The position numbers and the translations under genes are program-made. Shown piece after piece: positions 20,013-23,591 of a DNA stretch of 64,000 bases (positions are counted from its first letter, which is position 1; every line of letters starts with the position of its first letter). Source of the DNA: Bacteroidales bacterium (GTDB lineage: Bacteria > Bacteroidota > Bacteroidia > Bacteroidales > P3); the NCBI GenBank assembly GCA_022482545.1, contig JAKVOZ010000001.1:62001-126000 (forward strand), written 5' to 3'. The notes below the pieces were generated by a model that was not told where the DNA came from, ran no database searches, and worked only from the letters and a program-made list of their open reading frames with translations.

Positions 20013-21422
20013 TTATTTATTATCTTTCTTTTGAATGAATTTTATTAATCCACCTCTACTTGGTTCAAGCATAGGATTGTTTTCTATTGAACCATCTTTA
20101 TTTATTAGAACAAAAGTAGGGAAGAAATGAATTTTATATTCATCTATTAAACTAAAATTCTTATTAAAATGAGCAAAATTCCATTTATATTGACTTCCAA
20201 CTTTATTATTCTTTAAAAAATTATATAATTGTTCAAGATTGTCATCGCAAGAAATAGTTAAAATATTGCAATTATCTTTAATTGAATCATAATAATAATG
20301 AATGGCTTCCAATTCTAATAAAGAAGCTTCATCGCTAAGACGAACAAAATTAAGAATGAGAGGTTTATTTAGAAAACTTTTAATAGTTACAGATTTATTG
20401 TCAATATCTTTGACTGTAAAATCTTTATATTGTTTGCCGATATTGTCTTGATTATTAAGGTATTCAATTAAATTATTGGCTATCTCTTTGTTTTCAGAAA
20501 ACTTTGTTTGTAAAGAGAATTTATTTATCATCTTAATAATACTTTCCTTATTAAAATAACCTACAAGAAAAGCATCTTTCATTCCTTGAAGGAAAACAAG
20601 CTCACGAAAAATCTCATTCTCCAAGATTTTATCTCTACCTAAGGCATCAGACAAAGCATTATAATTATTGCTACTTAACCAAAAATCCAAATCATCTCTT
20701 TTAATGAATTTGTAGCCTTTTGAAAAATATTGACTGAATATGGTTTTAAAACAATCCATATATCCAATATTATCATAAAGAATAGGACTATTAGCAAAAA
20801 GATTAGTTTTTATTTGTTTTCTACTTGTTAAGTTTAAACCATATTTAATATCTGCAATACTATACTTAATATAATTTAAAACATATTGATTATTAATATA
20901 TTTATTAGAATAAATAGAATCAATATTATTTAAAGATGCTATTGAAGAACTATCTTTAATAAAAAGCAATCTATGATTACTATAAAGGAAATTGTTGAAG
21001 GTTGTATCAAAATCTAATATTTGGTTATTTATACCATCATCTTTTTCTTGATTAAGTACAATTGGCAAGGGTAGTTTGTATATAAAGGAAGCCAAGGAGT
21101 CGTCTTTGCTAAAATCAAAAGGCAAAACAGTGAGATTATATATCTGTCCTGGTTTTGCGATGAAGTGATAATCGTATAAATCTATTTTTATAATCACTTC
21201 TTTTGGACTTGAAAGCGTTAGAGAAAAAGAGAAGTTTGTGTCATTTTCATTAATGGCTTTTTCTTCAATATCTTTTTCAAGCATAGATAATCTATCTGTT
21301 ATTATTGAAAGTCGTATTGTTTTTCCTGCAACATCTTTTCCGTGTCCATTAATAGTTATGTTTTGAGAAAAAACATTGACAGATAAACATAGGATAATAG
21401 TTATTAAAAATATTTTCTTCAT
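20013..21422 (-). CDS. Exported thioredoxin-fold (TlpA-like) protein lacking the CxxC motif
   Basis: I place the start at the ATG at 21422, which gives a signal peptide (FLITIILCLSVNVFSQ) and 469 residues. A longer frame begins inside the upstream gene and is unlikely. The N-terminal part resembles the DUF4369-type beta domain of Bacteroidota TlpA/ResA relatives (ITINGHGKDVAGKTIRLSI). The C-terminal part (about 340-465) has a thioredoxin fold: KDFTVKDIDNKSVTIKSF, then KPLILNFVRLSDEAS, and FFPTFVLINKDGSI with the cis-Pro. The usual WCxPC after LNF is replaced by VRLSDEAS, so disulfide exchange is not possible. It may be a binding or scaffold protein in the periplasm. It lies 11 bp after the hydrogenase-like gene. 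Confidence 0.8.
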   Translation of the reverse strand: MKKIFLITIILCLSVNVFSQNITINGHGKDVAGKTIRLSIITDRLSMLEKDIEEKAINENDTNFSFSLTLSSPKEVIIKIDLYDYHFIAKPGQIYNLTVLPFDFSKDDSLASFIYKLPLPIVLNQEKDDGINNQILDFDTTFNNFLYSNHRLLFIKDSSSIASLNNIDSIYSNKYINNQYVLNYIKYSIADIKYGLNLTSRKQIKTNLFANSPILYDNIGYMDCFKTIFSQYFSKGYKFIKRDDLDFWLSSNNYNALSDALGRDKILENEIFRELVFLQGMKDAFLVGYFNKESIIKMINKFSLQTKFSENKEIANNLIEYLNNQDNIGKQYKDFTVKDIDNKSVTIKSFLNKPLILNFVRLSDEASLLELEAIHYYYDSIKDNCNILTISCDDNLEQLYNFLKNNKVGSQYKWNFAHFNKNFSLIDEYKIHFFPTFVLINKDGSIENNPMLEPSRGGLIKFIQKKDNK

Positions 21423-21433
21423 TTTTTTATTTA

Positions 21434-22810
21434 TTATTTTTTTAAAATATAATCTTCTAATTTTTCTTCGCCCCAAATTTTCTTCATGCTTTCAACGCTT
21501 TCTTCAATTGTCATACTTTTTCGCATCTCTAAATTTCTTTGAATAAAAACGCAGTCAGTAAGTTCTGCTCTTTTACAGACAATATCTTCTGCTAAGGCAT
21601 GGCATGAAGGAGAACCACAAACGCAACAATCTGTCTTTGGAAGATGTGCTTCTATTTGACGAATATTATCAAGTTTTTCCAAAGCAACAGATACATTTTC
21701 ATCAAGTACCATCATACTTCTTGGTAATATTTTGCCAAGACGAATATCTTTTAATAAGTATTCGCTTTCTTTGGCAATATCTTTTTTACGCTCAACTTCA
21801 CCATTGCGTTCTCTTTCTGCAATCTTACGTGCTCTTTGCATCATTCTTTCATATATCATAAAACGATTGCCACAAGTAAGTATGCCTCCCGGACAACCTT
21901 GGTCGCATGCCCTTGCTTCAATGAAATCAACATTTGTTACTTCTTCGTTTTCAACTTTTTCAAGGAAGTCAGATATATGCTTTATATTATCAATAGCATA
22001 ACTTTTCTCGGAAAAAAAAGTGCGTTTTTCTCCTTGTGATAAGGAGAACATAACACCATCAGAATTTATTTGATTTGTATGAATTTTAGGTTTGTAATCT
22101 TTACCATTTAATTTTATTTCTTTAAAAACTTTGTTGTAGCAAAAATCCATATTAATAACGCCGGTAATCAAACTCTTCTCTTCCCCAACAGGACTTTTGA
22201 TGGCAGCTATCTTTGCAGCACAAGGCGTTATATAAAACAATCCAATCTCATCTTCTTTAGCGCCTTTTTCTAAAAGTTTCTTCTTTACATAAGTAGCAGT
22301 TATATCAACCGGAGCTTTAATAGTCATTAGATTTTCAACTAAGGCAGGAAACTTAACTTGAATAAGTCGTACAACAGCAGGACAAAAAGTAGAAATTAAA
22401 GGTTTTTCAAAATCTTCTTCCTTAAAATATTTATCTCTTGCTTGATTATAAATAGGAGAAGCGGATTCTATTTCAATTACATCAGTAAAACCAATATTTA
22501 TTAATGTGTCATAAACTTGTGATGCTCTTATTTCAGGAGAAAATTGTCCAAGAAAAACAGCAGGAACAAGAATTACTCTATATTTATATTTATATATATC
22601 ATCAAAATCATCTTGTTCAATAAACACTGCACCAGAAGGACATACCTTATAACACTCTCCGCAATCAATACAACGATTTTCATATATTTTTGCTTTGCCA
22701 CCTCGTAGTCTTATTGCTTCTGTTGGACAATTTTTCATACAATGAGCACAGCCAATACACCTTTTTTCATCAATCTTTAAAGCATGATAAAAATACTTTT
22801 TCATTCCCAT
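21434..22810 (-). CDS. [FeFe]-hydrogenase-like iron-sulfur protein, putative sensory type
   Basis: This 458-residue protein has two [4Fe-4S] ferredoxin motifs (C18-C21-C24-C28 and C47-C50-C53-C57). Next comes a hydrogenase large-subunit domain and then a C-terminal Cys-rich segment (CCVCGSPSCHALAEDIVC) like the small Fe-S domain PF04060. The H-cluster ligands are all present: C143 in STFCPAV, C197 in TPCAAK, and C302 and C306 in ACDQGC. The adjacent proton-transfer cysteine of catalytic enzymes is Phe (F142). Group C and D sensory hydrogenases also lack that cysteine. The gene follows HATPase (2-bp gap) and DRTGG genes, a known context for such proteins. It could sense H2 or redox state, or be a non-hydrogenase Fe-S protein. 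Confidence 0.8.
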   Translation of the reverse strand: MGMKKYFYHALKIDEKRCIGCAHCMKNCPTEAIRLRGGKAKIYENRCIDCGECYKVCPSGAVFIEQDDFDDIYKYKYRVILVPAVFLGQFSPEIRASQVYDTLINIGFTDVIEIESASPIYNQARDKYFKEEDFEKPLISTFCPAVVRLIQVKFPALVENLMTIKAPVDITATYVKKKLLEKGAKEDEIGLFYITPCAAKIAAIKSPVGEEKSLITGVINMDFCYNKVFKEIKLNGKDYKPKIHTNQINSDGVMFSLSQGEKRTFFSEKSYAIDNIKHISDFLEKVENEEVTNVDFIEARACDQGCPGGILTCGNRFMIYERMMQRARKIAERERNGEVERKKDIAKESEYLLKDIRLGKILPRSMMVLDENVSVALEKLDNIRQIEAHLPKTDCCVCGSPSCHALAEDIVCKRAELTDCVFIQRNLEMRKSMTIEESVESMKKIWGEEKLEDYILKK

Positions 22811-22812
22811 AA

Positions 22813-23226
22813 TTATTTAAAATTTACTGTCATTATTATCTCTGTTCCAACACCAATTTCTGTTCTTATATCTAAATTATCTACATTGTTTTTTATGTTT
22901 GGTAATCCCATACCAGCACCAAATCCCATCTCTCTAACTTTTTCACTTGCTGTTGAATAACCTTCTTGCATTGCAAGAGATATATCTTTTATTCCTGGAC
23001 CTTTATCCTTGACATTAATAATTATTTTATCTGAATCTAAATCTACTAATACTTTTCCACCATAAGCATGAGCAATTGCATTAACTTCTGCTTCATAAAC
23101 AGCAATAACTACTCTTTTTATTATATGAACGTTTATGTTTAATTGTTTTAAAGTTTTTTTTATATCGCTTGATGCTTTACCAGCATTAGCGAAATCATTT
23201 TCAATAATATTGTATTCAAAATGCAT
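22813..23226 (-). CDS. RsbW-like ATP-binding (HATPase_c) protein
   Basis: This 137-residue stand-alone GHKL ATPase domain shows the N box AVYEAEVNAIAHAYGG, the G1 box VKDKGPGIKDI and the G2 loop GFGAGMGLPNIK. It resembles anti-sigma factor or serine kinases of the RsbW/SpoIIAB type, but no anti-anti-sigma partner is in the window. Its gene lies between the DRTGG gene (20-bp gap) and the hydrogenase-like gene (2-bp gap). That arrangement recurs in anaerobes and suggests it passes the signal of the Fe-S protein to a partner. The target is not known. Confidence 0.87.
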   Translation of the reverse strand: MHFEYNIIENDFANAGKASSDIKKTLKQLNINVHIIKRVVIAVYEAEVNAIAHAYGGKVLVDLDSDKIIINVKDKGPGIKDISLAMQEGYSTASEKVREMGFGAGMGLPNIKNNVDNLDIRTEIGVGTEIIMTVNFK

Positions 23227-23246
23227 GTATCTTCCTTTCTGTATAA

Positions 23247-23591
23247 TTAATAAATGGCTTTTAGTCCGGCATTATAAAGTAAGCCAGATGTTTGAAAGAT
23301 AGAATAATTGCATTCCAATAAAGTCATTCCTTCTTCTTTTGCTTCTTCAATCATGTCGTTGTTAATTTTCTTGCCTCTACAAAAAACAATCACTTCAATG
23401 TTTGCCATTTCTGCTGTACGTATCGTTTGAATATTACACAAACCAGTAAGAAGTAATATTTTATCAACCTTCAATGTTAAAACATCACTCATTAAATCAG
23501 ATGCAAAACAAAAAGTCAAGTCTTCATTTTTATTTTCTTCTCCTGTTATATATTTAGCATTGATAGCCTTTCTTATATCTTCTATTTTCAT
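23247..23591 (-). CDS. DRTGG-domain protein
   Basis: I choose the ATG at 23591 (MKIEDIRKAINAKYITGEEN), which gives 114 residues; the upstream extension is Lys- and Phe-rich spacer DNA. The fold is the small DRTGG domain, which in larger proteins sits between CBS domains and phosphotransacetylase or kinase domains and may bind a nucleotide. The stretches FASDLMSDVLTL and LLLTGLCNIQTIRTAEM match its core. In many anaerobes such a gene precedes the HATPase and hydrogenase-related genes, as here. It is probably the first gene of the operon running to 19242. Confidence 0.8.
   Translation of the reverse strand: MKIEDIRKAINAKYITGEENKNEDLTFCFASDLMSDVLTLKVDKILLLTGLCNIQTIRTAEMANIEVIVFCRGKKINNDMIEEAKEEGMTLLECNYSIFQTSGLLYNAGLKAIY

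Follow-up and report, generated by a model that had tools for sequence, protein, structure and literature searches.

What does a hydrogenase-like protein do when it retains every cysteine that holds an H-cluster, carries phenylalanine at the place of the catalytic cysteine and is encoded directly behind two signalling genes? The question is raised by a locus in a 64,000-nucleotide stretch of a Bacteroidales contig (hereafter the window). Judged from its sequence, the protein belongs to group D of the [FeFe]-hydrogenases, a group that is already known, and its Phe/Tyr and Arg/Lys residues mark a neglected branch of that family and not a one-off oddity, since relatives across the phylum share both the residue change and the two signalling genes.

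The locus and its proteins

Three open reading frames, all on the reverse strand, follow each other in the order DRTGG, HATPase and hydrogenase-like, as the first-pass annotation had claimed. The first encodes a DRTGG-domain protein of 114 aa (23247..23591), which scores 25.0 bits against PF07085, slightly below the Pfam cut-off of 25.2; its counterpart in Parabacteroides distasonis (23.6 bits) likewise falls below the cut-off, and a second DRTGG gene of that organism, downstream of hydS, lies above it with 29.3 bits. The second (22813..23226) encodes a single-domain HATPase of the anti-sigma-F (SpoIIAB/RsbW) type, which reaches 47.5 bits against HATPase_c_2 (Pfam cut-off 27.4) and matches the PDB entry 1til, an anti-sigma F factor (E 1.1e-5). 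What we take to be its N, G1 and G2 boxes can be read in the sequence. The HATPase resembles the SpoIIAB/RsbW anti-sigma kinases in family and motifs but differs from them in that its 67.7 bits against TIGR01925 (SpoIIAB) do not reach the curated cut-off of 135, and in its company, as no STAS, sigma or DNA-binding target gene is found within the trio. The next gene downstream of hydS, absent from the first-pass annotation, follows after a gap of 11 bases on the same strand (20013..21422) and encodes a thioredoxin-like protein (Thioredoxin_8, 41 bits) with, by reading, a signal-peptide-like start; in the Trx part, this copy showed no CxxC motif on reading.

The hydrogenase-like protein itself (HydS, 458 aa, 21434..22810, reverse strand) matches Fe_hyd_lg_C (PF02906) with 86 bits, the Pfam cut-off being 22.1. 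It begins with a two-[4Fe-4S] domain, recognised by Fer4, at residues 11-61 (C18, C21, C24, C28, C47, C50, C53, C57; 22628..22780), and carries a C-terminal FeS domain at residues 390-422 (21545..21643), where the motif Cx2Cx4Cx16C (C395, C398, C403, C420) matches PF04060 with 36.5 bits (Pfam cut-off 23). The AlphaFold2 model has a mean pLDDT of 84.3 and aligns best with solved [FeFe]-hydrogenases, namely CbA5H (8zqd; Z 27.6, rmsd 3.0, 348 residues) and CpI (4xdc; Z 25.1). Reading and alignments agree with the earlier assignment of C143, C197, C302 and C306 as the H-cluster cysteines. All 133 group D rows aligned before the last copies were removed have these four, and this constancy, like the recurrence of both upstream genes in 78 of 80 relatives, speaks against chance. 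The codon of F142 (22385..22387, reverse strand) likewise falls where it had been placed, at the catalytic cysteine C299 of CpI, which corresponds to A137 of TamHydS. A pseudogene or a sequencing error was considered and rejected because the Phe is conserved throughout the branch. The description of the neighbours as signalling genes without electron-transfer partners holds for the locus, but the protein brings its own ferredoxin-type domain, and an NADH-dependent HydABC-type hydrogenase (group A6 by NCBIfam) is encoded on another contig of the same genome.

Group D placement and the residues that frame the [2Fe] site

The tree placement proposed in the first-pass annotation was carried out with 60 rows. 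We assigned the group labels ourselves by similarity, sequence length, NCBIfam score and gene neighbours. A branch sets off each of the groups A, B, C and D, that of the 32 rows labelled D with a support of 100/100, and the window protein lies inside the group D clade, apart from A, B and C. As the tree holds no TamHydS row, the link of this clade to group D rests on the published TamHydS residues. Tree, domain layout, active-site residues and neighbours together identify the protein, at the level of sequence, as group D (M2e, putatively sensory). T195 stands at the CpI M353 position, where Ser or Thr is typical of M2e (PMC8163306, accessible text), and there is no Cys at the C299 position. 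Features of group A are lacking, the residues at C299, M353 and M497 being F, T and R and the score against TIGR02512 75.2 bits (cut-off 405.95). The C-terminal PAS domain that marks group C is lacking as well, since just 36 residues follow the C-terminal FeS domain and leave no room for it. A Pfam scan also found no PAS domain in the window protein, which is a weak test, because at E 1e-5 it gave no PAS match in two group C rows (L028, L138) either; the short tail is therefore the better argument.

Group C proteins (TmHydS, the Ruminococcus albus HydS L138, and L028, which belongs to the window genome) are likewise putative sensors with N- and C-terminal FeS domains, but they extend for about 170-210 residues beyond the C-terminal FeS domain (a PAS domain, according to the accessible parts of the papers), have Gly at M353 in most rows and form a separate clade. 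R. albus HydS adjoins a SpoIIE-type phosphatase gene. This putative sensor (L138 5989-7665) has Cys at the C299 place, where most group C rows studied here have Pro, Ala or Ser.

TamHydS, the group D protein of Thermoanaerobacter mathranii, is described in the accessible text as adjoining a histidine-kinase-like ATPase gene, turning over H2 slowly and changing its structure under H2 (PMC8163306, PMC10407848, PMC13104023); its secondary structure is reported to change under H2, with the C-terminal cluster not reduced (PMC13104023). The window protein shares with it the domain order, the lack of a PAS domain and a hydroxyl residue at M353 (PMC8163306, PMC10407848, PMC11803613, PMC13104023, as far as accessible), a Glu-Glu-Ser-Asp proton path of the same spacing, and the gene context, a HATPase gene (22813-23226) adjoining hydS. 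The two differ at C299 and M497, with Ala and Leu (L291; PMC11803613, accessible text) in TamHydS and Phe and Arg in the window protein, and in the HydABC-type genes, which are not adjacent in the window. A group D protein of the Firmicute Subdoligranulum variabile (L136) resembles the window protein in sequence (34% identity) and in gene order (DRTGG-HATPase-HydS-DRTGG-PHP), but it has Ala at C299 and Asp at M497, and a gap of about 0.75 kb separates its HATPase gene from hydS.

Residues were counted in 131 distinct group D sequences, 130 from Bacteroidota (by record title or kinship) and one from a Firmicute. The C299 place is held by Phe in 123, Tyr in seven and Ala in the Firmicute, so that all 130 Bacteroidota sequences examined have Phe or Tyr at 142. 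The statement that sensory enzymes carry other residues than Cys here, often Ala, agrees with A131 of TmHydS and A137 of TamHydS (PMC10407848, accessible text); according to the same source Ala is the commonest residue at this position in groups C and D and not an obligatory one, and the window protein has Phe instead. The suggestion of an isolated new variant must be given up, as Phe (or Tyr) is the rule among the Bacteroidota group D sequences examined. A second change, which the first-pass annotation did not include, affects R300 (codon 21911..21913, reverse strand), aligned with CpI M497 and TamHydS L291: this place is held by Arg in 124, Lys in two, His in two, Phe in two and Asp in one (the Firmicute), and Arg or Lys is present in 126 of the 130 Bacteroidota sequences.

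The proton relay proposed for group D runs elsewhere, through E252-E289-S249-D265 in TamHydS (PMC10407848, accessible text), and its counterparts in the window protein are E261 (codon 22028..22030), E298 (codon 21917..21919, both on the reverse strand), S258 and D274. The published spacings S249-E252 (3), E252-D265 (13) and E252-E289 (37) equal those of S258-E261, E261-D274 and E261-E298 (PMC10407848). Both E261 and D274 are kept in 126/131 group D sequences (125/130 from Bacteroidota), and E298 in all 133 group D rows present before the last copies were removed. K200, which we take to be CpI K358, is kept in 130 of 133 rows. The idea that the Phe alters the proton supply, or causes a defect in it, was rejected, because the relay proposed for group D takes another course and keeps its residues here. 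The alignments instead characterise the Phe as a trait of the branch, joined with Arg at another place framing the [2Fe] site, with the proposed proton path intact. The branch-wide Phe/Tyr and Arg/Lys show that residues around the [2Fe] site may be exchanged at C299 and M497 alike with the Glu relay of group D left in place. The change at 142 and 300 falls on one branch, so the tree cannot show co-evolution of the two positions, and the outgroup for it is thin, consisting of one Firmicute and the published TamHydS residues. Five exceptions to the relay (G232, G397, G240, G572, G498) keep Phe at 142, but position 261 is Q, Q, L, V and L, respectively, and position 274 is not Asp in any of them. 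The two of these that belong to the window's order, G572 and G498 (L181, L182), have Phe at both 142 and 300 with Val or Leu at 261, and G498 has Leu in place of the otherwise kept Lys200. The open-licence PMC literature yielded nothing on Phe at the C299 place in hydrogenases and no paper on the Phe/Tyr-Arg branch of group D.

Gene neighbourhoods of the relatives

Of 583 relatives confirmed on genome contigs, the best 80 were compared for their neighbourhoods. All 80 are Bacteroidota by title, so that for group D in Firmicutes there is one sequence, together with the published TamHydS residues; a search of viral contigs found no relative. In 78 of these 80 relatives, hydS has a DRTGG and a HATPase gene at most 1.3 kb upstream, and the two exceptions are a stretch that begins 85 bases before hydS (L099) and one in which about 1.2 kb upstream hold neither gene (L058). 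This recurrence makes DRTGG and HATPase candidate partners of HydS. To our knowledge, TamHydS is so far the sole group D enzyme to have been characterised. The authors of this work regard finding its interaction partners as critical (PMC13104023, accessible text), and the upstream pair offers concrete, testable ones. No open-licence PMC paper on DRTGG beside [FeFe]-hydrogenases was found.

The remainder of the neighbourhood varies. Among the same 80 stretches as fetched, 37 hold a PHP gene (34 of them together with a second DRTGG gene), 25 hold HydX or HydB, and 33 show neither a second cassette nor HydX/HydB in view, many stretches being cut by contig ends. The order in P. distasonis, whose HydS homologue is WP_008779889.1, is DRTGG-HATPase-HydS-DRTGG-PHP-HATPase, mostly with public annotation, and the window's lineage has the trio with the thioredoxin-like gene. 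A homologue of the latter follows hydS in L056, L057 and L059-L062 and lies within the hydS frame in L029, L030 and L058. In these three the hydS frame is open into the thioredoxin-like gene (L029 4158-6974, the same place as L009; L030 7481-10330, the same as L008; L058 1124-4006), giving frames of 939-961 aa in which, in the two that were read, the hydrophobic leader becomes an internal segment. They are candidates for a fusion of hydS with the thioredoxin-like gene, and an internal start is possible. A functional link to an upstream rpoD-like sigma gene was not upheld, as this gene is near the trio in only two of the best 80 of 583 relatives (L056, L057), which points to ordinary synteny.

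In G232 the genes around the cassette resemble those of NuoE, NuoF, NuoG and Hdr, and among them are also a [NiFe]-hydrogenase gene (PF00374, 118.9 bits) and its small-subunit-like partner (PF01058); the neighbourhoods of G397 and G240 resemble it by reading. In the stretches L172, L173 and L174 the cassette adjoins Nuo-like and Hdr-like genes, and in L172 a [NiFe]-hydrogenase gene as well; their HydS proteins have Phe142, with His, His and Arg, respectively, in the position of M497 and Q, Q and L at 261. Of 14 genomes in the window's genus, the one that holds the window is alone in having a group D protein (at E 1e-20), though sister genera often have one; the gene was either lost in most of the genus or gained later.

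Maturases and possible roles of HydS

The window genome is 94% complete and encodes five PF02906 proteins, a group B enzyme among them. Of the maturases that the first-pass annotation proposed to look for, HydE (333.7 bits) and HydG (479.8 bits) are present above their cut-offs, so that the genome does have maturase genes; no HydF above the cut-off was found in the assembly, in which only generic GTPase matches were seen by reading. HydF is present in 12 of 13 genomes of the same genus, and its absence here is probably an assembly gap.

We consider it reasonably likely that the window protein is a slow H-cluster sensor of the Bacteroidota branch of group D, acting via HATPase and DRTGG on the HydABC-type system. 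The fold, the cluster cysteines, the relay residues, the recurrent trio and, in some relatives, the linkage to HydABC-type subunit genes are established. A low-turnover H-cluster, for which HydE and HydG are present, would react with H2 or the ferredoxin pool; the N-terminal [4Fe-4S] clusters would accept the electrons, and HydS would then change its shape. This change might switch the HATPase, by family a serine-kinase-type ATPase, with DRTGG as a ligand-binding or scaffold partner, and expression or activity of the HydABC-type enzyme would then track H2 pressure or redox state. The branch-wide pair F142 and R300, at two of the places framing the [2Fe] site, may tune or shield this site while protons go by the Glu path. 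Counting against a sensor are the HydF gene not found in the window assembly, the trio without a STAS, sigma or DNA-binding target, and the 33 of 80 stretches (best 80 of 583) without a second cassette or HydX/HydB in view. The 14 of 106 group D genomes without a recognisable HydG, of which the 11 in the window's order have the same kind of pocket residues, also count against it.

The maturase survey covered 106 group D genomes (26 + 80), 22 poorer genomes having been left out beforehand. HydG lies above the cut-off in 91, the window's included, and is a fragment in one (G042); in 14 it was not found, among them G464 with a weaker match below the cut-off. HydG is absent in all three sampled group D genomes of family f27 (G407, G713, G630) and in both of family f23 (G735, G797), all 99-100% complete, and HydF was not found in any of the five HydG-less genomes tested for it (G039, G407, G232, G240, G397). 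The 11 HydG-less genomes in the window's order keep F/Y142, R/K300, E261, D274 and E298. In G232 (99% complete) and G397 (98%) the group D protein, in which Q replaces E261 and G or A replaces D274, is the sole PF02906 protein, and neither HydG nor HydF was found. These two and the other HydG-less genomes suggest that some of the Bacteroidota group D branch may work without a [2Fe] site. Residue retention does not tell, however, since group A hydrogenases of G407 and G039 keep C299, M353 and M497, and a group B hydrogenase of G407 keeps C299 and M497, in genomes without HydG or HydF. Recent losses, another maturation route or roles without the [2Fe] site would each account for such genomes, and with these natural lineages one can ask directly whether relatives of sensory hydrogenases depend on the [2Fe] site at all. 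G407 (L196, L197) retains group A, B and D genes together.

A stronger reading, rather unlikely in our judgement, is that the Bacteroidota branch gave up the [2Fe] site altogether, Phe/Tyr142 and Arg300 filling the pocket and the [4Fe-4S] clusters alone sensing ferredoxin redox state. It draws on the replacement of C299 and M497 by F/Y with R/K in nearly the whole branch and on the HydG-less genomes, above all G232 and G397 with their altered relay and those of the window's order with the same kind of pocket residues. Yet the large majority of group D genomes, the window's included, have HydG, E261 with D274 and K200 are kept almost throughout, and G407 and G039 keep catalytic residues in other hydrogenases although neither HydG nor HydF was found there. 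Extended to a whole branch of maturase-independent pseudo-hydrogenases, in which the pocket that once held [2Fe] is filled by an aromatic-arginine pair and the remaining [4Fe-4S] relay reports ferredoxin redox state to the SpoIIAB-type kinase and DRTGG, the proposal seems to us doubtful. If true, it would mean that a hydrogenase fold has become a redox switch, and it would explain why the protein persists where neither HydG nor HydF is found.

That HydS is a true catalytic hydrogenase of low rate, an electron sink or uptake enzyme and not a sensor, is improbable: the ferredoxin-type N-terminal domain, the full set of H-cluster cysteines and the low but measurable activity of TamHydS (PMC10407848, accessible text) would suit it, but the C299, M353 and M497 places are altered, the neighbours are of signalling type in 78 of the best 80 of 583 relatives, the trio has no dedicated redox partner, and the window genome is already equipped with enzymes of the HydABC type and of group B. 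A function as assembly or quality-control factor for complexes of the HydABC or NuoEFG type, DRTGG and HATPase being its chaperone-like partners, would fit the cassette of G232 and the similar ones of G397 and G240 but is very improbable, given that the HydABC-type genes of the window genome lie on another contig and that 33 of the 80 stretches (best 80 of 583) have no second cassette or HydX/HydB in view.

No P. distasonis record was found among the HydE and HydF matches or the HydG matches listed. The records of this organism (L137, L140) are plasmid-labelled and maybe not a whole genome, and have a PNGase gene after the group B gene; the group B gene of Bacteroides finegoldii and that of Phocaeicola massiliensis are followed by hydE, hydG and hydF.
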